DNA from: Planctomycetaceae bacterium
GTDB lineage: Bacteria > Planctomycetota > Planctomycetia > Planctomycetales > Planctomycetaceae
DNA length: 50,843 bases
Reading direction: 5' to 3'
Assembly: GCA_021732785.1 (NCBI GenBank)
Contig: JAKFUG010000056.1
Span: forward strand, 1-50,843
The notes under the pieces: generated by a model
The model's database searches: none
Told to the model about the DNA's origin: nothing
The model's input: the letters and a program-made list of their open reading frames with translations, nothing else
Position numbers and translations under genes: made by a program
In this document: one piece after another, positions 1 through 45,702 of the stretch
How positions within the stretch are numbered: the first letter of the stretch is position 1
Layout of the letters: each line of letters starts with the position of its first letter

Positions 1-106
1 TTTGGCAAAATGTTTGTCGATCTTACAAGCCGGTCCCGTCCCCATCGCTGCGCTCCTTCGTCAACCACACCGGAAAATTCCGCAACCCTTGACGAAGGCC
101 CTCCCC

Positions 107-3100
107 ATGCAATCATTGGACCAATTCACGCCGCCGACATGCGATTGCCCTGCTGGGTCCGTACCGCATTCTGTCGAAACTGGGCCAGGGAGGCATGGGG
201 GCGGTGTTCAAGGCCCAGCATGAACACCTCGACAAAACGGTGGCGATCAAAGTGCTGTCGGCGGCGGTCACCCATCAAGCCGATGCGGTGGCGCGATTTC
301 GGCGCGAAATGCGGGCCGTCGGCAAACTGAATCATCCCAACATCGTGCAGGCCCACGACGCCGGCGAGATCGCCGGCACACATTACCTGGCCATGGAGTT
401 CATCGACGGCACCGACTTGCTCCATCTGGTCCGGGAGCGCGGTCCGATGTCGGTCATGAATGCCTGCAAAGCCGTGCGGCAAGCCGCTCAAGCGCTGGCC
501 GCCGCCCATGCCGCGGGGCTGGTGCATCGGGACATCAAGCCCTCGAACCTGCTCGTGGCGAAGAACGGGCAAATGAAGGTGCTCGATCTGGGGCTCGCCC
601 TTCTCGCCGGGGAAGCGACGACACACACTGCCGATCTCACGACGGCCGGGCAAGCCTTTGGGACGCCCGATTACATGGCCCCCGAGCAATGGGAAGACGC
701 TCATTCCGCCGATGCCCGTACCGATCTTTACGCCCTCGGCTGCACGCTCTACTTCCTGCTGACGGGGAAGGCTCCGTATGAGACCAGTACTCATCGGACC
801 GCGATCAATAAAATGAAGGGCCACCTCATGGATCCACCGCCGGATCTGCAGGCGGCCCGCAGTGATGTACCGCACGATCTCGTCGCGATCTACCAGAAAC
901 TGTTAGCGAAAAAACCGGCAGACCGGTATCAAACCGCGAAGGAACTGGCCGAGGTTTTAGCGCCGTTTTCGTCCTCGAAAGCCAGCCACAGCAGTTCAAC
1001 GGACGCGATGGCACCGCAAGCCACGATGCCCTGGGTGTTTCCACCGTTGGCCGTCGAACACGGCGGCAGCGCTCCGCCGCCCATTCGGAAGATCTCTTCC
1101 GCCGGACGCGGGTGGACACCGCGCCAGCAGGGCATTGCCGCCGGGGGTGCCGCCGCTTTGCTGCTCCTCGGTGTGATCATCATCACGATCACCAATAAAG
1201 ATGGCACGAAAACAAAGCTCGAATTCTCCGGCGACGCGCAACAAGTCGAGGTCGCCAAAGACGACAAATCTCTGGTGAAGATCACGCCGGGCGAAGCAGC
1301 CCAGTCTGCCGCTGTTCCTTCTAACACCGCACCGACGAAGCCCAAGCCGGCCGGTGTCGATCACCCCGTGTTTGCTGCCGACGGCAAAACCATCGGCTGG
1401 CCCATCGACGCCCCCAAACCAGCGATCGCCCCGTTCGATGCCGCGCAGGCGAAGCAACATCAGAAAGAATGGGCCGCGTACCTGAAAGTACCGGTCGAGT
1501 ATACCAACAGCATCGGCATGAAATTTCGTCTCATCCCACCGGGCGAATTCTTGATGGGCAGCACAACCAGGGAAATCGAAGAAGCCCTCAAAGAGGTCGG
1601 CGACAACCGGTACTGGCAGGACTGCATCCAGTCGGGCGCACCCCAGCATAAGGTGATCCTGACACAGCCGAGGTATCTTGCGGAGAACGAAGTCACTCAG
1701 GCCGAATACGAAAAAATGATGGGGACCAGTCCTTCCCATTTCTCCTCCACGGGCATGGGGAAAGAGACGGTGGCGGGGATCGAGACGACCACTCACCCCG
1801 TGGAAGAGGTCCGCTGGGAAGACGCGGTGGAATTCTGCATCAAGTTGAACCATCAGGAAGGTTTCAAGTCTTTCTCCACCGAGGCGGGACAGACGACGAT
1901 TCCCGCCGATAGCTCAGGATACCGACTCCCCAGCGAAGCGGAGTGGGAATTCGCCTGTCGCGGGGGAACCGTCGGAAAATACTGGTTCGGCGACAGAGAC
2001 GGAGACTTCGGGAACGCCGGATGGTATGGAGACAACGCGGCGGGTCGCACCCGTCCGGTTGGTCAGTTGCAAGCCAATCCGTTTGGTCTCTTTGACGTTC
2101 ATGGCAACGTCTGGGAATGGGTGCTGGATGGATGGGAGCCGACATATGGCGACCGTGAACCGGAGAAGTTGGTAATCAATCCCGGCCGCTCGCTCTCACC
2201 CGGCCCGCGAAAAGTAATCCGCGGCGGCAGTTGGCATGGCTCGGCATCCTACTCCCGGTCGTCGAGCCGCAATGCCGCCTTCCCCGGAAACCGGGATTTC
2301 GGAACTGGTTTTCGAGTCTCGTTGTCGGTCGATGCGGTGAAAGCGGCTCTCCGCAATCGCATGCCGAAGGTCGCGAACGGCGCGTCAAGTTGGCACGGCT
2401 GGCCCACCGATGCCCCCCAACCCGCCATCGCACCGTTCGACGCCACGCAGGCAAAAAAACATCAGGAAGAATGGGCGGCATATCTCAACGTTCCCGTCGA
2501 GTACACCAACAACCTCGGCATGACGTTCCGTCTCATTCCGCCCGGTGAGTTTCTGATGGGAAGCACCCCCGACGAGATGGAAACCAACCTGCGCGATGTC
2601 GGTCCCGATGATTTTCACTGGCGGGAGTGTATTCAAAGCGAAGCGCCGCAGCATCAAGTCATCCTGACACAACCGTTCTACCTCGCTGTTCATGAAGTCA
2701 CGCAAGCCGATTTCCAATCGCTGATGGACAAGAACCCGTCCATTTTTTCCGCAACGGGGCAGCGAAAGGCCAACGTCGACGGCCTCGATACCGCGCGTCA
2801 TCCGGTGGACGGCGTGAGCTGGCAGGAGGCTGGGGAGTTCTGCGCAAAACTGAGTGAAAAAGAGAAAATCGTGCCCGCGGAAAGGACCGGGTATCGTTTG
2901 CCGACGGAAGCCGAATGGGAGTTCGCCTGCCGGGCCGGAATGACCAAGACCTATTGGAGCGGCAAGTCCGTCCCGGATCTCATGACCGCGGGTTATTTCA
3001 TCCAGAACTCGATGTTCCGCACCCACCCGATTGGGGAACGGCTTGCCAATCCGTTCGGTTTGAAAGACACGCATGGCAACGTGTGGGAGTGGGTCACAGA

Positions 3101-3341
3101 TGCCTGGGATGCGAAGTTCTTCGAGCAATTCACCGAGCAGCCGGCGATCAATCCCCGAAGCCCTGCGTCATCCGGTTCTTATCGCGTGCTGCGGGGCGGA
3201 GATTGCTACACTCCGTTCATGGGCTGCCGGGCCGCCTTCCGTTTTTCCATCGATCCACAGGGGGCCGACAAAGTCGTCGGCTTGCGACCCGCCCTCGACG
3301 TGCAGGCGGTGCAACGGGCGTTGAAATCCTCGGTCAAGTAA
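107..3341 (+). CDS. Transmembrane Ser/Thr protein kinase with two C-terminal SUMF1 (FGE-like) domains; probable 5' frameshift
   Basis: Predicted membrane-anchored eukaryotic-type Ser/Thr kinase. Counting from the ATG at 195, the catalytic Lys is in AIK (about residue 19), HRDIKPSN is at 111-118, DLG (variant of DFG) at 131-133, and MAPEQW follows. A single membrane segment lies near 309-336. Two homologous SUMF1/FGE-like domains follow at about 437-708 and 769-1025, each with MGS, RLPxEAEWEFACR, FGLxDxHGNVWEW and a C-terminal RGG motif. Neither shows the CxxxxC copper site of aerobic FGE, so a binding or sensing role is more likely than formylglycine formation. ATG 195 cannot be the real start, because the glycine loop LGPYRILSKLGQGG is encoded just upstream in the same frame, which has no start codon back to the stop at 90. 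A credible start, ATG 107 (MQSLDQFTPPT), is in another frame. One extra base around 131-153 would explain this. Kinase call is firm; the 5' end is uncertain. Confidence 0.9.
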
Positions 3342-3350
3342 TCCGAAAAT

Positions 3351-3413
3351 GTGCCACGGCTTCGTCCGCGAAGCAGTGCCGATCACTTACCGCGGACTCT
3401 GCAGCCGTGGCAC
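3351..3413. repeat. Palindromic repeat, family C (copy 1)
   Basis: A GTGCCACGGCTTCGTCCGCG arm is followed by an imperfect inverted arm ending in GCCGTGGCAC. The same arms recur at 38740-38815. It sits just after the kinase stop and may act as a transcription-terminating hairpin. Confidence 0.6.
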
Positions 3414-3478
3414 GATAGCCTCCCCTACTGCCGAACAGTACACTCGGGACGCTCCACCCTTCCCGAGGATGCCGCTCC

Positions 3479-4198
3479 GTGCCGACTGCTGCCGATCCTG
3501 CCGCGTTCATCACCCGCTGGTCGAAATCCGGCGGGTCGGAGCGGGCGAACTACACGTCGTTTCTGTCTGAACTCTGCGACATCCTCGCCGTTCCCCGACC
3601 GGAACCGACGCAGGCCGATCCGACGAAGAACATCTACGTCTTCGAGCGCGACGTCTTCTTCCACAACACCGACGGCACCACCAGCACCGGCCGTATCGAT
3701 CTCTACAAACGGGGCTGCTTCATCCTCGAAGCGAAACAGGGAACCGAGCAAACCGCCGACGAACTTCAATTGTCGACGACGCCGAAGAAGTTGAAACGCG
3801 GTCACGGCGTGCGCGGGACGAAGGGCTGGGACGACGCGATGACCCGCGCTCGTGGTCAGGCCGAACAGTATGCCAAGGCGCTCCCCGTCGATGAAGGCTG
3901 GCCGCCGTTTCTCATCGTGGTCGATGTCGGTCATTCCATCGAACTCTTCGCCGACTTCACCAAGAGCGGCAAAGTGTACCTGCCATTCCCCGATCCGAAA
4001 TCGTATCGGCTCCTGCTCGACGATATCGCTGAAGACGACATTCGCGACCGTCTCCGCACGGTGTGGACCGATCCCGTCTCGCTTGATCCGACCCGCCGAT
4101 CCGCCAAGGTGACGCGGGAACTCGCCGATCGGCTGGCCAAGCTCGCGAAATCCCTCGAAGGATCGAAGTTTGAAGCGGGCTGCGTGGCTGTCATCTAG
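3479..4198 (+). pseudogene. N-terminal remnant (nuclease part) of an MmeI-like type IIL/IIG restriction-methylase
   Basis: A 239-codon ORF with a GTG start (GAGG upstream). It reads like the first quarter of the roughly 900-1000-residue MmeI-like single-chain restriction/methylation enzymes: [32 protein letters not shown], then the PD-(D/E)xK-type nuclease core D74...E84-A-K86 ([17 protein letters not shown]), [11 protein letters not shown], and [12 protein letters not shown]. Similarity appears to run to about residue 237 (LAKSLEG...VAV) and then stops at a TAG. The methyltransferase and target-recognition regions are missing, and the C-terminal tail of the same family lies 2.6 kb downstream at 6786-7331. 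The intervening DNA is a foreign PstI-type system. The nuclease core looks intact, so a free nuclease fragment could be made, but without methylase and recognition parts it is probably inactive. Family call is strong; functional state is inferred. Confidence 0.85.
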
Positions 4199-4200
4199 GT

Positions 4201-4230
4201 TTGCCTGCGTTCCGCGTATTTTCGTAGAAT
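4201..4230 (+). promoter_or_regulatory. Possible sigma70-like promoter for the PstI-type methylase
   Basis: TTGCCT (4201-4206), an 18-base spacer and TAGAAT (4225-4230) end 7 bases before the methylase ATG at 4238. Transcription from it would give an almost leaderless mRNA. It lies inside the lower-GC inserted segment, so the inserted pair may carry its own promoter. Pattern only; untested. Confidence 0.4.
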
Positions 4231-4237
4231 CACCGAG

Positions 4238-5755
4238 ATGGCTAGATCAACATTCCAACCCGCACGCTTGTTCGATGCCGACGACTTGGTTGAATCAAGC
4301 GATCGAGTGAACCGAGATCGGCGGTCCGATCTCGGCCAGTTCTTTACGCCCAAATCGATTGCCGATTTCATGGCGTCGCTTTTCGACGCCTGCCCTTCCA
4401 AGATTAGACTGCTCGATGCAGGTGCCGGTAATGGCTCATTAACCGAAGCGTTCGTGCAGTGGCTTTGCCAGTTGAAAATCAAACCCGATTCGCTTTCCGT
4501 CACGGCTTTTGAAATCGATGAACATGCAGTCCCGGCACTTCATGAGGCGATGACGCGGTGCCGAACGGAATGCGAATCCGTCGGGATCCGATTTACCTCA
4601 GAAGTTCGCCACGAGGACTTCATTAGCACGGCGTCGTATTCGGAACGAGGACTGTTTACCGAACGATTACGGTTCGATGCGGCGATTGTGAATCCTCCGT
4701 ACCGCAAGATTCAAAGCACTTCGAGTGCGAGAAAGATGCTGAGCGCGGTGGGGATTGAAACGAGCAATCTGTACTCCGGGTTTATCTCGCTCATCGTCCG
4801 GTTGCTCGTTCCCGGTGGACAACTGGTGGCGATCACCCCGAGGAGTTTCTGTAACGGTCCCTATTTCAAGCCGTTTCGCATCGACTTTCTGAGTCGAATG
4901 TCGTTACGCCGCATGCACGTCTTTGAATCTCGCGCGAGCGCTTTTGCGGACGACAATGTCCTTCAAGAGAATGTTATTTATCACGCTGTGAAAGCACGCA
5001 AGCCTCCCACCTACGTCGTGATCTCCAGCAGCAGTGGCGTTCCCGGTGCAATCGTTTCTGCACGCGGTACGCCTTTCTCGGATGTTGTCCATCCGGACGA
5101 CATCGAGCAATTTATCCACCTTGAAACTGACGACTCACATCGCATCGCCCGCAATCAGATGTCGACACTGACGGCGTCACTAACGGATTTGGGTCTGAAA
5201 GTCTCCACGGGCCGCGTTGTCGATTTTCGTGCGCGAGAATATCTCCGTGCAGACCCCGAACCCGGAACGGTCCCGCTGATTTACCCGTGCCATTTCCATC
5301 AAGGAGGCATTGCCTGGCCGAAGATCGGTGGCCGTAAGCCCAATGCGATCCACTCCAGTGCGCAGTCGTTGGGGCTGTTGGTTCCACGCGGTTGTTATGT
5401 CCTCGTAAAACGGTTTTCGGCCAAAGAGGAACGCCGCCGAATCGTGGCCAGCGTTTGCGATCCGGAAATTCTCGCCGGCGAAGCCTTCGGCATCGAGAAC
5501 CACCTCAACTATTTTCATGCGAATGGCCACGGGCTCGAACGAGACTTGGCCTTCGGCCTTGCCTCGTTCCTGAACTCCACAGTGGTGGATCAGTATTTCC
5601 GTCAGTTCAGCGGTCACACGCAGGTCAACTCAACGGACCTGCGATCATTGCGATTTCCATCGACCGATCAACTGCGGCGCTTCGGACAGCAGCATCCACC
5701 TGGACTGTCGACCCAAGCGGAGTTGGACCGTCTTGTCGACGAGGAATTCTTCTAA
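4238..5755 (+). CDS. PstI/BsuBI-type adenine-N6 DNA methyltransferase
   Basis: A 505-residue class I methyltransferase and the modification partner of the endonuclease that begins on its stop codon. Motif X-like GQFFTP is at 33-38, the SAM-binding motif I DAGAGNGSLT at 60-69, an acidic FEID near 91-94, and the catalytic motif IV NPPY at 152-155. The NPPY motif indicates N6-adenine methylation. The length closely matches M.PstI and M.BsuBI, which modify CTGCAG, so this is the predicted specificity, by family rather than by test. The C-terminal half should hold the recognition region. The stop TAA overlaps the next ATG by one base (TAATG), implying translational coupling. Base composition is visibly lower in GC than flanking genes. 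The pair sits between the two halves of an older MmeI-like gene. Confidence 0.92.
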   Translation: MARSTFQPARLFDADDLVESSDRVNRDRRSDLGQFFTPKSIADFMASLFDACPSKIRLLDAGAGNGSLTEAFVQWLCQLKIKPDSLSVTAFEIDEHAVPALHEAMTRCRTECESVGIRFTSEVRHEDFISTASYSERGLFTERLRFDAAIVNPPYRKIQSTSSARKMLSAVGIETSNLYSGFISLIVRLLVPGGQLVAITPRSFCNGPYFKPFRIDFLSRMSLRRMHVFESRASAFADDNVLQENVIYHAVKARKPPTYVVISSSSGVPGAIVSARGTPFSDVVHPDDIEQFIHLETDDSHRIARNQMSTLTASLTDLGLKVSTGRVVDFRAREYLRADPEPGTVPLIYPCHFHQGGIAWPKIGGRKPNAIHSSAQSLGLLVPRGCYVLVKRFSAKEERRRIVASVCDPEILAGEAFGIENHLNYFHANGHGLERDLAFGLASFLNSTVVDQYFRQFSGHTQVNSTDLRSLRFPSTDQLRRFGQQHPPGLSTQAELDRLVDEEFF

Positions 5756-6762
5756 TGGCAGGGCGAAAGCGTGATTCACTTGCCATCGCACGGGTACAGA
5801 AACTCGACGAAGCTGGCGCAATCCTGGATGCAATGGGCTTCGGCAACAAGCAGCGGAACGACACTGCCAAATATGCGTTTCTGGCCTTGTGCGGTTTGAC
5901 ACCAAGCATGCCATGGAGTCAGGCCACAGCTCCGTTGCTTGGGATCACGCCCATTATGGATGCAATCGCTGCGAGCTATGGAGTGCAATATGCTCCGAAC
6001 ACGCGGGAGACGGTCCGTGATGAGGCGGTGAAACATTTTGTCGCGGCAGGACTACTGATTCGGAATCCAGACAATCCCAGTCGTCCCACGAACAGCGGCA
6101 ACACCGTGTACGGTCTGGAACCACATGCACTGGACCTGATTCGACAATTTGGGACACCCCAATGGGCAGCCGCGTTGGCTCGCTATCTCGAATCTCGGGC
6201 CGACATCGTCGCAGAATTGACTCGCTCGCGGAGTTTGAATCGTGTTGAAGTCACGCTTCCGAACGGCTCATTGGTCTCCCTTTCTCCGGGCGGACAAAAC
6301 CCGCTCATCAAGCGCATTCTCGAAGATTTCTGCTCGTATTGGATCCGTACAGGCGTCGTCGTTTACATCGGCGATACAGAGAACAAATGGCTGCACTTCG
6401 ACTCCGGCTACCTGTTAAAACTCGGCGTCACGATTGACACCGCGGATAAGATTCCGGATGTGGTAGTTCACGACACCACCCGTAATTGGCTTGTGCTCAT
6501 TGAAGCCGTCACATCGGTCGGTCCCGTTGACGCGAAGCGCCGAACAGAACTCAAGAAAATCTTCGCTAACTCAGCGGCTGCCTTGGTCTTCGTAACGGCT
6601 TTTCCAAGCCGCGAAGTCATGCGGGCGTTCGTAACGCATATTTCCTGGGAATCCGAGGTCTGGCTTGCCGATGACCCCATGCACCTGATTCATTTCAACG
6701 GCGAACGCTGCTTTGCTCCTTACAATGATGCCTTGCCGGAGCAATTGCGGCAGAATTCCTGA
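5755..6762 (+). CDS. PstI/BsuBI-family type II restriction endonuclease
   Basis: A 335-residue protein; R.PstI and R.BsuBI are of similar size. It should cleave unmodified DNA, by family at CTGCAG. The conserved C-terminal block is clear: YIGDTENKWLHFD (about 204-216), IPDVVVHD (233-240) and WLVLIEAVTS (245-254), then GPVDAKRR, FVTAFPSR and HFNGER. PD234-235 and E250 probably form the catalytic acidic cluster. I chose ATG 5755 over the upstream in-frame start at 5392 because 5755 overlaps the methylase stop (TAATG) and because the stretch before it lies within methylase coding sequence. No controller gene is seen. The stop codon is about 25 bases before MmeI-like C-terminal homology resumes. 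Confidence 0.93.
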   Translation: MAGRKRDSLAIARVQKLDEAGAILDAMGFGNKQRNDTAKYAFLALCGLTPSMPWSQATAPLLGITPIMDAIAASYGVQYAPNTRETVRDEAVKHFVAAGLLIRNPDNPSRPTNSGNTVYGLEPHALDLIRQFGTPQWAAALARYLESRADIVAELTRSRSLNRVEVTLPNGSLVSLSPGGQNPLIKRILEDFCSYWIRTGVVVYIGDTENKWLHFDSGYLLKLGVTIDTADKIPDVVVHDTTRNWLVLIEAVTSVGPVDAKRRTELKKIFANSAAALVFVTAFPSREVMRAFVTHISWESEVWLADDPMHLIHFNGERCFAPYNDALPEQLRQNS

Positions 6763-6785
6763 GTGATTTTCGGTGTGTCCGAGGA

Positions 6786-7331
6786 GCCGCTACGGCGAAG
6801 GACAAGGTGATCCACGAACAGGGGTTGGTGTCGGTCCTGAAGCAGATTCACGACGACCTCGACGCCGCCGTCTTTGAGGCGTATGGCTGGCCGGTGTCCC
6901 TGACCGATGAGGAAATCCTCGAACGGCTAGTCGCCCTCAACGCCGAACGGGCCGCCGAAGAACAACGCGGCCTCATCCGCTGGCTGCGCCCCGAATTCCA
7001 GAACCCCAGCGGTGGGAAAACGATTCAACCGGAACTCGACATCGAACCGGAAGAGGAAGAAGTGGCCGCCACTGGGAAGAAGACCAAGCGGGGCGCGAAA
7101 CCGCAAGCGGGGGTGGCGGCCGGGAAGAAAACTTCGTGGCCGAAGAAGTTGCCGGAGCAATTTCAGATGGTGGTACAACGTCTGCAAGCCGCCGAGAAAC
7201 CGCTCACCGCCGCCGATCTTGCCAAGGCGTTCACCAAGGCGAAGGAAGCGGACATCGCCGAGCTATTGGAAACCCTCGTCACCCTCGGCAAAGCCCGCCC
7301 GGTAAAAGGGGAACGCTACGCCGCAGTGTGA
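6786..7331 (+). pseudogene. C-terminal remnant of the MmeI-like restriction-methylase
   Basis: An open frame running from 6762 with no good start of its own; the first candidate is GTG 6807. The encoded segment TAKDKVIHEQGLVSVLKQIH, then DDLDAAVF, AYGWP, LVALNAERAAEEQRGLIRWL and RPEFQNP is the typical tail of MmeI-like enzymes. It is followed by a Lys/Glu-rich linker and a final helical segment (WPKKLPEQ, ADLAKAFTKAK, ELLETLVTLGKA). It is the other end of the gene whose N-terminus lies at 3479-4198, in the same orientation. The missing middle, roughly 650-750 residues by family length, contained the methylase and most of the specificity region. Translation as an independent protein is doubtful. 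Confidence 0.82.
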
Positions 7332-7360
7332 CGGGGTTGTCGGGAAGTCGGTGAACTGAA

Positions 7361-7437
7361 GTGTGCCACGGCCGTGTCGGCCGTGCGCGGTGGCAAAACG
7401 CGCTGCAAAATCGCGCGGCCGACACGGCCGTGGCACA
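7361..7437. repeat. Palindromic repeat, family B (copy 1)
   Basis: Perfect outer arms (TGTGCCACGGCCGTGTCGGC and its inverse) flank a core containing GGTGGCAAAACG and GCAAAATCGC. A second copy with the same core is at 28744-28822. It lies between the convergent MmeI tail and the PQQ gene. Confidence 0.75.
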
Positions 7438-7508
7438 AAAAGCACTCCACGTTGCGAATGAACGGACTCCTGTAAAATCACCGGCCGATCCCGAATTTGG
7501 CTTCGGGA

Positions 7509-8741
7509 TTATTGGCCGACGCAAATCAAACTCTTCGCCCCGCGGATGAAAATCTGGCCATCGCTGATGGCGGGCGACGAATACGCTTCCTCCCCCAGCG
7601 GGTTCTGGGCGATGATCTTGAACTCTTTATCCGCGGCGATCACGTGCATGGTGCCGGCGTCGTCGAGGAAGTAGACGTTTCCCTTCGCGGCGACGAGGGA
7701 ACTGCTGTGGTGCGGGCCGAGGCGTTTGAACCATTGCACTTCGCCGGTGGTCGCCTCGAAACAGGTCGCGATCCCTTCGTCAGAGACGCAAAAGAAAAAA
7801 TCTCCGGCGGCGACGGGGGACGGAACGTATGACACGCCGCGGTTGAGGTGTCGCCATTTGACGTGGGATTCCGCGGTGATCTGGCCGCTCCCGCGCGGAT
7901 CGATGGCGAGGATGTGTTTGTCCGGGAAGCCGCCGGTGATGAAGACCAGCCCGGCGTTCATCACCGGTGAAGCGACGAACTGTTCGGTGGGACCATCGAG
8001 CAGCCACCACTGCTTGCCGGTGTTCGGATCATAGCTGGCAACACATTTGCTGCCGGAGAGAATCATTTGCGTGCGGCCGTCGATGTCCCGGATGATCGGC
8101 GTGCAATAGCTGCGGGTTTTGTTCTCCCGCGGCGTCTTCCAGAGGGTATGTCCATCGGCCCGGTCGAGCGCGACGAGATAGGCGTTGCCGTCGTGATCGC
8201 CGTTGATGATCACCATGTCGTTGTAGAGCACGGGGCACGAACAGAAACCGTGGACGCTGGAGAACCCGCCCGGTTTGACATCCCACACGCGGTCGCCGTC
8301 CATCGTGAAAGCGACGACGCGGACATCTTTCTCGTCGAGGAAGGTGGCATAAATCCGTTCGCCATCGGTCGCCGGGGTGCTGGAAGCCCAACTGTTGAGT
8401 TTGTGTTTTTTCTCCAGCGGCGATTTTTCGACTTCCCGCTCCCAGGCGATTTTGCCATCGCGGCGATTCACCGCCACCAGCATCCGTCGTTCGCCCGGTT
8501 CGTCGGCTCCCGTGATGAAGACGCGGTCATTCCACACGATGGGCGACGAGTGCCCGGTATACGGCAGGGGGGTTTTCCACGCGAGGTTCTGATTTCCGGG
8601 AACATCCCACGTCGTCGGCACGTCTGTTTCAACGCTGCTGCCATCGCCGCGCGGCCCGCGCCAGCCCGGCCAGTTTTCAGCAAACGCGGGAGTGACCGCG
8701 AGAATCATCCATAAAAACAACAAACCGGCGGGTCGAAGCAT
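7509..8741 (-). CDS. Exported PQQ-like beta-propeller repeat protein
   Basis: A 410-residue exported protein. An N-terminal signal peptide (MLRPAGLLFLWMILAVTPAFA) is followed by NWPGWRGPRGDG, the usual opening of planctomycete PQQ-like WD40 proteins. Repeated blades then show patterns such as VNRRDGKIAWERE, LDRADGHTLWKTP, YDPNTGKQWW and FEATTGEVQWFKR (the AxDxxTGxxxW signature). The longer ORF starting at 8969 is not used, because the signal peptide begins at the ATG at 8741 and the extra 76 codons fall in repeat-bearing intergenic DNA. Known relatives are structural propellers without a proven enzymatic role, and no dehydrogenase active-site motif is evident. It is monocistronic and convergent with the restriction island. 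Confidence 0.88.
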   Translation of the reverse strand: MLRPAGLLFLWMILAVTPAFAENWPGWRGPRGDGSSVETDVPTTWDVPGNQNLAWKTPLPYTGHSSPIVWNDRVFITGADEPGERRMLVAVNRRDGKIAWEREVEKSPLEKKHKLNSWASSTPATDGERIYATFLDEKDVRVVAFTMDGDRVWDVKPGGFSSVHGFCSCPVLYNDMVIINGDHDGNAYLVALDRADGHTLWKTPRENKTRSYCTPIIRDIDGRTQMILSGSKCVASYDPNTGKQWWLLDGPTEQFVASPVMNAGLVFITGGFPDKHILAIDPRGSGQITAESHVKWRHLNRGVSYVPSPVAAGDFFFCVSDEGIATCFEATTGEVQWFKRLGPHHSSSLVAAKGNVYFLDDAGTMHVIAADKEFKIIAQNPLGEEAYSSPAISDGQIFIRGAKSLICVGQ

Positions 8742-8779
8742 GGGGGAACTTTCGGTTGTCAATTCGAAAAGCGTTTTTG

Positions 8780-8882
8780 TCAAAAAGGCACAAGAGACAC
8801 AAAAAGAATGCAGGAAGAGGAAAGGCAGGTTTACTCTTCTGAATCCTGGCTTCCCCCGTTTGTGGCTCGTGTGCCTTTTCGT
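8780..8882. repeat. Inverted repeat in the PQQ/MoxR divergent intergenic region
   Basis: Arms CAAAAAGGCACA (from 8780) and TGTGCCTTTTCG (ending near 8882) extend over about 23 bases with few mismatches. The 380-base gap also holds a perfect 8-bp hairpin, GTGGCATG...CATGCCAC (8942-8964), and a CTCTTGACCCTCG motif just before the moxR start that recurs inside the 33561-38657 gene. Nothing else is recognised here. Confidence 0.5.
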
Positions 8883-9123
8883 GGCCAAAAACTCTTCTCT
8901 TCGTCTCGCGTCTTTTTGCGGCCCACCGCTTCTCTTGGTAAGTGGCATGGGAATAGCATGCCACGCCATCGGACCAAAAGAAATTCCGTCTCGTCCGTGA
9001 TCTGAATTTTGATCCGCCCCGTTTCCACCGCTCGGTCAACTTGGTATGACGCTATAGACAATTCACCTGACATAAACTGCTGTCCGGCTCTTGACCCTCG
9101 CCTCTCGACACTGGACTTTATCC

Positions 9124-10152
9124 ATGGCATCGTCTGCGGGCTCTTCGGTCGTCACGAATCTCAGTGATAACGACGTTCAGGCGATCGATCGCCTGCGCGA
9201 TCTCTTCGGCAAACTGCGGAAAGAACTCGGTCGCGTGATCATCGGCCAGCACGATGTCATCGAGCGGCTGTCGATCTGCATGTTTGCCCGCGGGCATGCC
9301 CTGCTGATGGGCGTCCCCGGACTGGCGAAGACGCTGCTGGTCAGCAAGCTGGCGGAGACGATGTCGCTGAAATTCAGCCGCATCCAGTTCACGCCCGACC
9401 TGATGCCGATGGACATCACCGGGACCGATATTCTGCAGGAAGGCTCGCAGGGGAAGCGTGAGTTCCAGTTCATTCACGGCCCGGTCTTTGCGAACATCGT
9501 GCTTGCGGACGAAATCAACCGCGCTCCCCCAAAGACGCAGGCGGCGATGCTCGAAGCGATGCAGGAGCAGAAGGTCACCGTCGTCGGCAAGACCTTTTCG
9601 CTCGAAGCCCCGTTCTTCGTGCTGGCAACACAGAACCCCGTCGAACAGGAAGGAACCTACCCGCTGCCCGAAGCGCAGTTGGACCGGTTCATGTTTCTGA
9701 TCGAACTAGATTATCCCAACGAAGCGGAAGAAATTCTGATCGCGCGGACCACCACCGGCGACGCGCTGCCGTCGCTGGAACATCTGCTGCACGCGCAGGA
9801 GATGCTCGATCACCAGCATCTCGTGCGACGGATTCCGGTGCCGGATCACATTTATCAGTACGCCGCGAAACTCGTCCGCAAGACTCGTCCGCAGGGAGCC
9901 ACAGCCCCGGCGTGGTTGAAGCCGTTGGTCGCCTGGGGCGCCGGCCCGCGTGCAGTGCAGTTCCTCATCCTCGGTGCCAAAGCCCGCGCCGCATTGCACG
10001 GCAGTTATATGGTGCGGCTGGAAGACATCCACGAAGTCGCGGTGCCGGTGCTGACGCACCGCGTGATCACGACATTCGCAGCGCAAGCGGAAGGACTCGA
10101 TGCGAAGTCGATTGTGAAGAAACTGGTGGCGGAAACGATGGAAGAGGCGTAA
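9124..10152 (+). CDS. MoxR-family AAA+ ATPase
   Basis: A 342-residue AAA+ ATPase of the MoxR group, thought to act as a chaperone for von Willebrand A-domain partners encoded beside it. Features are IIGQHDVIERL near 39-50, Walker A GVPGLAKT at 63-70, QFTPDLMPMDITG, a Walker B-like LADEINRAPPKTQ near 127-140 and the sensor segment VLATQNPVEQEGTYPLPEAQLDRF. ATG 9124 (MASSAGSS) is preferred to the TTG at 9091, because conservation begins after it and the TTG lies in a repeat-like stretch. It heads the co-oriented block with DUF58, BatA-like and vWA proteins, but a 0.55-kb inverted-repeat element now separates it from DUF58. Confidence 0.95.
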   Translation: MASSAGSSVVTNLSDNDVQAIDRLRDLFGKLRKELGRVIIGQHDVIERLSICMFARGHALLMGVPGLAKTLLVSKLAETMSLKFSRIQFTPDLMPMDITGTDILQEGSQGKREFQFIHGPVFANIVLADEINRAPPKTQAAMLEAMQEQKVTVVGKTFSLEAPFFVLATQNPVEQEGTYPLPEAQLDRFMFLIELDYPNEAEEILIARTTTGDALPSLEHLLHAQEMLDHQHLVRRIPVPDHIYQYAAKLVRKTRPQGATAPAWLKPLVAWGAGPRAVQFLILGAKARAALHGSYMVRLEDIHEVAVPVLTHRVITTFAAQAEGLDAKSIVKKLVAETMEEA

Positions 10153-28743: not shown

Positions 28744-28822
28744 GTGTGCCACGGCCGTATCGGCCGTGCGAAGTGGTAAAACGCTCCGCAAAATCGCACG
28801 GCCGACACGGCCGTGGCACACA
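28744..28822. repeat. Palindromic repeat, family B (copy 2)
   Basis: Same outer arms and same core as 7361-7437, with a few substitutions (GTAT for GTGT, AAGTGG for CGGTGG). It lies in the divergent gap 28589-28942, which otherwise shows nothing recognisable. Confidence 0.75.
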
Positions 28823-45150: not shown

Positions 45151-45702
45151 ATGCCAGATTATCGACGGTGGTATGTTCCCGGCGGGACATACTTTTTCAC
45201 ACTGGTCACGCATGAACGCCGCCCGTTGTTCGCTGACCGAAGTGGAATCAGCTTGCTGCGATCCGCCTGGCGAACTCTCCGACAAAAATGGCCGTTTCAA
45301 ACAGTCGCCGTCGTTGTCCTTCCAGATCATCTGCACACGGTCTGGTCACTCCCGCCGGGCGACGATCGTTTTTCGTTGCGATTGGGAAAGCTCAAAGAGC
45401 ACTTCACCCGCGCGTTTCTTGCGGCTGGTGGGGAAGAGGGAACCCGCTCGGAGTCACGTCTTAATCGACGAGAACGGGCGATCTGGCAGCGTCGTTTCTG
45501 GGAGCACGTTTGCCGAGACGAGGAAGACCTGAAGGAAAAGGTCGATTACATCCATTGGAATCCGGTCAAACACGGATTAGTCCAGCATGTCGTTGATTAT
45601 CGCTGGTCGTCTTTTCGACAGTTCGTGAAGCTCGGCGAATACCCCCGCGAATGGGGAAACGCCGCTGACGTTGCCCACATCTCGCAGAAGAACTGGGAAT
45701 AG
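45151..45702 (+). CDS. REP-associated tyrosine transposase (RAYT)
   Basis: A 183-residue Y1-type HUH transposase of the RAYT (TnpA-REP) group. The HUH metal motif is H60-L61-H62 in VVVLPDHLHTVWSLPPGD. The catalytic tyrosine is Y133 in KVDYIHWNPVKHGLV. IWQRRFWEHVCRDEEDL and YRWSSFRQFV are family-typical. Such enzymes nick and join single-stranded REP DNA. Start ATG 45151 has AGAAGG six bases upstream. It is bracketed by an inverted REP pair (44995-45124) and a further REP (45710-45743), all with the same GTAGGG head, so these are the likely cognate substrates. The gene looks intact, with full length and both active-site motifs. Confidence 0.94.
   Translation: MPDYRRWYVPGGTYFFTLVTHERRPLFADRSGISLLRSAWRTLRQKWPFQTVAVVVLPDHLHTVWSLPPGDDRFSLRLGKLKEHFTRAFLAAGGEEGTRSESRLNRRERAIWQRRFWEHVCRDEEDLKEKVDYIHWNPVKHGLVQHVVDYRWSSFRQFVKLGEYPREWGNAADVAHISQKNWE

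Follow-up and report, generated by a model that had tools for sequence, protein, structure and literature searches.

In a stretch of 50,843 nucleotides (nt) from a Planctomycetaceae bacterium (assembly GCA_021732785.1, contig JAKFUG010000056.1, positions 1 to 50,843 of the forward strand; referred to as the window), a complete two-gene restriction-modification (R-M) system of the BsuBI/PstI family was found at 3479-7331 between the two ends of one type IIG, MmeI-like gene. Comparison with relatives and with a wide sample of other genomes indicates that type IIG genes are very probably a recurrent replacement site for defence cassettes, of which the window presents one case. The resident single-chain gene would have lost most of its spacer and the whole core of methylase and target recognition domain (TRD), and the incoming system would have taken the place of this core in the same orientation. 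Genes of this type have been opened and refilled repeatedly with other, mostly unrelated defence cassettes, the right edge lying close to where the TRD meets the helical bundle. The layout of the locus, the recurrence, the replacement within the same gene of relatives and the clustering of breakpoints are direct observations, whereas the activity of the pair, the inertness of the remnants and the cause of the site preference are inferred. A sequence-only reading of the window had proposed that one defence gene served as the landing site of another; this proposal is supported, and what it missed is that the replacement is recurrent and not confined to restriction systems.

The N-terminal remnant of the type IIG gene (3479-4198, + strand) comprises the PD-(D/E)XK nuclease domain and a bit of the helical spacer, with homology ending at 4189, and was recognised in Pfam as MmeI_N (PF20464, E 4.7e-28). 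The C-terminal remnant of the same gene (6765-7331, + strand), below every Pfam cut-off, comprises the helical bundle and a family-specific extension; its frame is open from 6765, the first start codon lies at 6807 and the homology spans 6789-7325. Both flanking open reading frames (ORFs), earlier claimed to be the ends of one MmeI-like protein, indeed matched one and the same PADLOC type IIG model (PDLC03627, 1136 positions), the N piece at positions 3-232 (E 1.5e-89) and the C piece at 972-1136 (E 3.3e-50), so that an origin of the two flanks from different families is excluded. Against our own type IIG profile, built from 63 intact relatives and comprising 1168 positions, the window aligned at profile positions 20-258 (3482-4189) and 1004-1167 (6789-7325), and profile positions 259-1003, which include methylase and TRD, found no match on the + strand of window positions 1-10000. 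A second copy of either type IIG end was not found in the window's genome. For MmeI, a type IIL/IIG enzyme, the order nuclease (1-155), spacer (156-300), methylase (301-620), TRD (621-825) and helical bundle (826-919) is described (PMC4833311); the window retains the first and most of the last, whereas methylase and TRD are wholly missing. By alignment to MmeI, what is left is the nuclease, a short part of the spacer, and the C-terminal bundle for the most part, together with its extension. The catalytic D...ExK is retained in the N remnant, where D74, E84 and K86 occupy invariant columns of alignment A1. An uninterrupted relative of the same family occurs in genome G003 as a frame of 1228 amino acids (aa), 69% identical to the window's N piece and 61% to its C piece. 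Since the ends align to one protein, an uninterrupted relative exists and same-genus pairs show this type of event (see below), the earlier claim that the incoming system replaced the methylase and specificity regions of the resident gene can be upheld.

Between the remnants lie the methylase (4238-5755, + strand, 505 aa), in which the motifs DAGAGNGSLT and NPPY were read from the sequence, and the full-length BsuBI/PstI-family endonuclease (5755-6762, + strand, 335 aa), which overlap at stop and start in TAATG, as stated previously. The methylase matched PADLOC PDLC03227 (E 1.6e-164) and PDLC03359 (E 5e-141) and carries the Pfam domains Eco57I and N6_Mtase; PDLC03359 spans the two proteins one after the other (17-514 and 526-840 of 840). 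The endonuclease matched PF06616 (E 3.2e-57, positions 1-154 of 154) and PF17728 (E 1.3e-38, positions 2-136 of 140), and its only match among solved structures was SdaI (2ixs, E 3.1e-69, residues 16-324). With both BsuBI_PstI_RE domains and an adjacent matching methylase, it belongs to a BsuBI/PstI-family type II system, and Pfam and PADLOC bear out the earlier view that the pair between the flanks is complete. The endonucleases SdaI, PstI and BsuBI are homologous to that of the window over the full length, and SdaI and PstI differ in the length of their sites; the target of the pair may be CTGCAG or a longer site containing CTGCAG, such as CCTGCAGG. Judged by its family, the pair would be a working system, in which the methylase protects and the endonuclease cuts one site. 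Among 72,556 plasmid records, 154 contain relatives of the endonuclease, and 83 of these 154 plasmids are predicted to be conjugative; among 50,697 phage records there are 3 with such relatives, so that plasmid and phage carriers of such endonucleases exist; none is linked to the window locus. Other pairs of the BsuBI/PstI type in the window's family look broken (L065 3807-6589, L070 8965-9645): in G050 small genes stand between methylase and endonuclease pieces, and in G047 both genes were apparently fused by deletion.

The junctions of the pair with the type IIG gene are short, comprising 48 nt on the left (4190-4237, from the end of type IIG homology to the methylase start) and 26 nt on the right (6763-6788, from the endonuclease stop to the start of type IIG homology). 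Neither direct nor inverted repeats of at least 8 nt were found between the two 110-nt junction stretches of the window, and none of the four ORFs of 3479-7331, the ORFs searched, was a transposase; for these ORFs and junctions, the transposase and terminal repeats expected of a cassette borne by an insertion sequence (IS) or composite transposon were hence not found. A common junction motif was considered for the compared loci and rejected, as no 9-nt word was common to three or more junctions. The promoter of its own that had been suggested for the pair is not supported, since a single sigma-70-like match (4201-4230) was detected, where 1.1 are expected by chance in the scanned region.

A tail-profile search of 170 genomes of the window's family, in which tails were counted if at least 100 of 171 positions were covered, yielded 18 tails, of which that of G490 was dropped, a contig end cutting it. 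Nine of the 17 assessable tails sit in genes intact as far as the contig reaches, and that of G475 belongs to a gene that is broken yet contiguous. The remaining seven are detached, the place of the core being taken by other genes: G000 (the window), the second copy in G003, G484, G487, G495, G009 and G464. In six of these seven the opposite side of the gene lies beyond the cassette, the second copy in G003 being the exception. The genomes G003 and G009 each consist of a single contig, and assembly error thus does not explain their detached tails. The intact type IIG gene of G003 and its detached tail lie 3.6 Mb apart and show 93.8% DNA identity (L024 4384-4991; L064 9901-10511). A search with the N end gave 18 N ends with E <1e-40 in the same family, of which G493 and G514:C280 were dropped owing to contig ends and the rest was sorted by hand; it added a locus in G514 (L277), in which the contig stops within the tail.

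In a scan that covered 84,980 species, each represented by a single genome, the best 80 of at least 372 confirmed matches, not picked for interruption, were classified as intact (53), cassette-interrupted (5), contiguous but matched piecewise (5), contig-cut (13) and other (4), the latter falling outside all classes (L154, L175, L189, L218). Four of the piecewise-matched loci carry frameshifts or stops, and L221 is a single open frame. Three of the cassette-interrupted loci had already been counted in the family and two belong to other phyla, namely Verrucomicrobiaceae bacterium H5_VER2 (L169) and Acidobacteria bacterium 13_1_20CM_3_53_8 (L173); L146, L147, L148, L150, L151, L182, L185 and L224 fit loci already taken and were not counted twice. 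Two-sided bracketing of a foreign cassette of 1.5-2.7 kb was found at 11 loci (the window, L126, L128, L129, L130, L035, L277, L139, L281, L169 and L173), nine in Planctomycetota and one each in Verrucomicrobiota and Acidobacteriota. Among these, the contig of L126 starts inside the gene and that of L277 ends inside the tail; the tails of L139 and L281 represent a divergent subfamily with weak matches, L139 being backed by DNA similarity to L138, which is intact. In L064, L280, L034, L273 and L283, one of the two ends is absent, weakly matched or decayed. A tail on a Paracoccus plasmid (H3), with no gene listed, was not counted; the stretch lacking a listed gene has roughly the length of a full gene, and the gene table is known to be incomplete.

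Defence systems were recognised by Pfam or PADLOC in seven of the 11 two-sided cassettes (the search covered Pfam only for L126, the L280 methylase, L281, L273 and L283). Besides the BsuBI/PstI pair of the window, these are SmaI and its methylase (L130; PF17411, E 1.8e-72), a C5 methylase with an EcoO109I-like enzyme (L139; E 6.3e-9), methylase-endonuclease pairs in L169 (PDLC03404, E 1.3e-113) and L173 (PDLC03436, E 1.8e-56), AbiLi with AbiLii (L277), and PDC-M38A with PDC-M38B (L128; E 2.7e-81 and 4.5e-60). With one end only, a C5 methylase, a DUF4928 endonuclease and Vsr occupy L064 (G003), and a C5 methylase and HaeII (PF09554, E 7.1e-96) occupy L280; recognised cassettes in type IIG genes thus number nine of different kinds, seven two-sided and two one-sided. 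In L034 a divergent MmeI_N end is followed by a PstI-type methylase, 36% identical to that of the window, and then by the contig end. The contents of L273 and L283 were not recognised.

Replacement can be followed in the same gene within two same-genus pairs of genomes. In one genus, G009 with a cassette and G465 with a gene intact to the contig end, which lies in the tail, share the upstream flank and N end with 86.6% identity over 4446 bp, and their tails are 87.9% identical at the DNA level. In another, G484 and G487 hold different cassettes with different breakpoints in the same gene, that of G487 recognised as PDC-M38 and that of G484 unrecognised; here the downstream flank is 88.3% identical over 700 bp, the N side 88.8% and the tail 80.7%. 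As in a defence hotspot, this pair shows different cargo at the same site in relatives; the borders are two parts of a type IIG gene, and neither core genes nor an integrase target. Synonymous divergence (dS) between G484 and G487 is similar in the N arm (0.43), in the tail (0.44) and in the two genes of the flanks that were compared (0.46 and 0.35), from which it follows that the ends are native. They were inherited vertically, and the cassette consequently entered and replaced the core in place. A mosaic origin of the tail, to which its lower identity might point (80.7% vs 88.8%), was rejected, as the tail is of the same age and shows faster protein change (ratio of nonsynonymous to synonymous divergence, dN/dS, 0.38 vs 0.10).

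These values bear on the idea that the ends act as homology arms, through which genomes exchange, by homologous recombination, cassettes that are already joined to type IIG ends. Breakpoints near the edges of conserved segments (left 383-414, right 966-982, both picked post hoc) would agree with it, but the arms of G484 and G487 are about as diverged as the flanking genes and were not imported, which led us to reject arm-borne exchange for that pair. The want of a shared 9-nt junction word and the diversity of the cassettes, apart from the PstI-type methylase of L034, speak against it too, and we regard exchange by homology arms as quite unlikely.

Left edges of the 11 loci range from profile position 79 to 536, four of them lying at 383-414, and all right edges fall at 947-1027, which on MmeI is close to the border of TRD and helical bundle. 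This right-edge clustering has a P of ~2e-10 (n=11) under a uniform model between the left edge and position 1040, and of 9e-8 (n=8) once both divergent loci and one member of the same-gene pair are taken out, the model being crude and the right edges of L139 and L281 coming from weak profile matches. L283, L273, L280, L064 and L034 were left out, owing to their missing, weak or decayed ends. The sub-clusters 383-414 and 966-982 have nominal p values of 0.003 and 0.004.

HsdR, which belongs to a different defence system and is of comparable length, served as a control; its N-terminal domain was sought across these 170 genomes. Matches with E <1e-20 numbered 73 in a count by hand, of which seven contig-cut ones were dropped, leaving 66. 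Twelve frames were shorter than 800 aa; 10 of them were fetched, and the other two, G022:C481 and G016:C185, start where their contigs do. For the 61 longer frames, of which four were fetched as queries, an uninterrupted gene was assumed, and far HsdR ends were sought in the fetched loci with these four proteins only. Within this four-query search, and with long frames assumed uninterrupted, none of the 66 HsdR genes was found bracketed by both ends, against six of 17 type IIG genes in the tail search (p 3e-5) and five of 16 in the N search (p 2e-4).

Apart from the crudeness of the breakpoint model, several observations weigh against a recurrent replacement of this kind. An intact gene at the window's own site was not found in any relative, so that this particular event is inferred, and the dating of it suggested earlier is not supported. 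In a sample from the rest of the class, 13 of 17 tails of at least 100 positions sit in frames of at least 1150 aa; among the other four, G076:C3 and G625 are contiguous but split, G637 is contig-cut, and G788:C233 (L273), decayed, is the one detached tail, so that the bracketing pattern is concentrated in the window's family and rarer elsewhere. The guanine-cytosine (GC) content of the pair, claimed earlier to be lower, is indeed low (0.548, reached by none of 863 equal-length stretches elsewhere in the window), and each of the 10 cassettes measured has a lower GC content than its arms, yet the middle is also lower than the ends in 10 of 11 intact type IIG genes and the excess is modest (mean gap 0.106 vs 0.057 in intact genes, p 0.005). 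GC content was hence rejected as proof of foreign origin and kept as weak support. Four of the 11 two-sided cassettes are without a recognised defence system, namely L129 (7668-10251, a metallo-beta-lactamase fold protein and two others), L035 (5686-7770, a ParA-like ATPase and two others), L126 (1245-2356, a helix-turn-helix (HTH) protein and one other) and L281 (an HTH protein). Loss of one end is not specific to type IIG genes, given that four of the 66 HsdR genes are truncated beside unrelated DNA, and in two deletions free of a cassette the right edge lies outside the cluster, at 931 in L189 and at 865 in L218. Finally, both window remnants are open and show no obvious relaxation, with dN/dS of 0.17 and 0.19 to L142, within the range of intact pairs.

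Some of these points would be expected from plain decay in defence islands, in which large genes are hit at random and type IIG genes are not special. The truncated HsdR genes agree with it, as do the rarity of detachment in the rest of the class, the four contiguous frameshifted copies among the best 80 of at least 372 matches, and L189 and L218. In these last two, from a Myxococcales metagenome-assembled genome and Thauera sp. 2A1, the core of the type IIG gene is deleted and no cassette is present (L189 8036-9489; L218 5098-6980). Decay at random, however, accounts neither for two-sided bracketing being frequent in type IIG genes of this family and unseen among the 66 HsdR genes of the four-query control nor for the strong clustering of right breakpoints. 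It is likewise at odds with the completeness of the seven recognised cassettes, in each of which both genes of the system are present and at 12 of whose 14 junctions (coordinates read by eye) less than 75 nt separate the ORF end from type IIG homology. Plain decay alone is therefore considered an unlikely explanation.

The open frames and intact catalytic residues of the window raise the question whether the remnants are working parts, i.e., whether the nuclease domain or C-terminal bundle was kept and acts together with the new system. A low dN/dS of 0.10-0.22 in the window remnants and in the tails of L035 and L064 would fit this, as would the fact that detached tails, L273 excepted, reach or nearly reach the profile end unless the contig ends first. 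On the other hand, left breaks are scattered from 79 to 536 and cut the nuclease domain itself in L035, L173 and L169, the N end of L277 bears a frameshift and has a dN/dS of 0.56, the value for the L126/L128 tail is 0.38, and the cassettes are mechanistically unrelated. A working role of the remnants thus appears very unlikely, and the remnants are presumably leftovers of different ages, those of the window most likely inert. The nuclease remnant keeps its catalytic residues and has no TRD to bring it to DNA. As MmeI presumably acts as a dimer and requires two recognition sites to cleave efficiently (PMC4833311), a nuclease piece lacking the recognition domain should by analogy be harmless, which would answer the earlier concern that a nuclease half kept without its methylase is dangerous if active.

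Replacement of the type IIG core by incoming cassettes is perhaps tolerated for the reason that breaking a single-chain enzyme would end restriction and protection together, unlike in a two-gene system; the rule suggested by this is that a one-chain enzyme can be broken safely and a two-gene system cannot. A more far-reaching reading, which we put forward tentatively as a possibility, is that type IIG genes form a dedicated, recombinase-free exchange socket, and that the genes in L129, L035, L126 and L281 are new defence systems by location. The core, from the edge of spacer and methylase to that of recognition domain and helical bundle, would then be replaced by any arriving defence cassette. 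The unrecognised fillers of L129, L035 and L126 are in any case candidates for new defence systems by their location, and genes sitting between type IIG ends offer a search method for such systems.

A genome comparison from the Kobayashi group, by Furuta in 2010, is said to have dealt with R-M insertion and linked rearrangements. Small-unit movement of R-M systems, nesting of defence genes and small integration hotspots as a proposal are already known (PMC3031569, PMC12707154, PMC4176335). Restriction systems are described by the Kobayashi group as moving in small units and causing local rearrangement, with long target duplications, IS-linked integration and few crossovers of 1-3 bp (PMC3031569). 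The window resembles such insertions in presenting a restriction system as a small mobile unit with local rearrangement, but differs in that no junction repeat was found (the test covering at least 8 nt), that the resident core is deleted and that cassettes other than restriction systems occupy the same kind of site (PMC3031569). Oliveira, Touchon and Rocha (2014) described fast turnover of restriction systems despite their rarity on mobile elements as a question awaiting clarification, and proposed small integration hotspots for it (PMC4176335). The acquired regions of that study, which are small, carry complete R-M systems and are considered to depend less on mobile elements, are similar to the present case, in which, however, the site is the body of a type IIG gene with defined breakpoints (PMC4176335). 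The type IIG gene body, recognisable by its leftover ends, is thus a candidate for such a hotspot. Genes like prrC are described as embedded in type I hsd loci, where PrrC acts when the enzyme of the locus is inhibited (PMC12707154); there too a defence gene is nested within another defence locus, whereas here the host gene is destroyed (PMC12707154). Broken type IIG genes look like a recurrent exchange place for anti-virus defences, and a description of recurrent replacement inside these genes was not found in a literature search covering titles and abstract openings.

In the window's genus, neither G001 nor G002, the latter 64% complete, showed a match to either type IIG end. G002 was considered as an empty site and found uninformative, since its downstream gene has 85% DNA identity, the left genes differ and a type IIG end is lacking. 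Its DNA match to the window (L063) begins at 7516, leftward of which the compared stretch holds only a palindromic repeat and one 23-nt word in common, and the left part of the window therefore looks like a variable island. This long palindromic repeat lies right behind the tail (7361-7437), with copies at 28744-28820 and in G002 (L063 9284-9360). An ORF at 45151-45699 is presumably a transposase of the Y1 type associated with repetitive extragenic palindromic (REP) elements. In two of the truncated HsdR genes (L319 3328-4194; L321 2940-4187) an ORF directly follows the break, which we take in both cases to encode a tyrosine recombinase.

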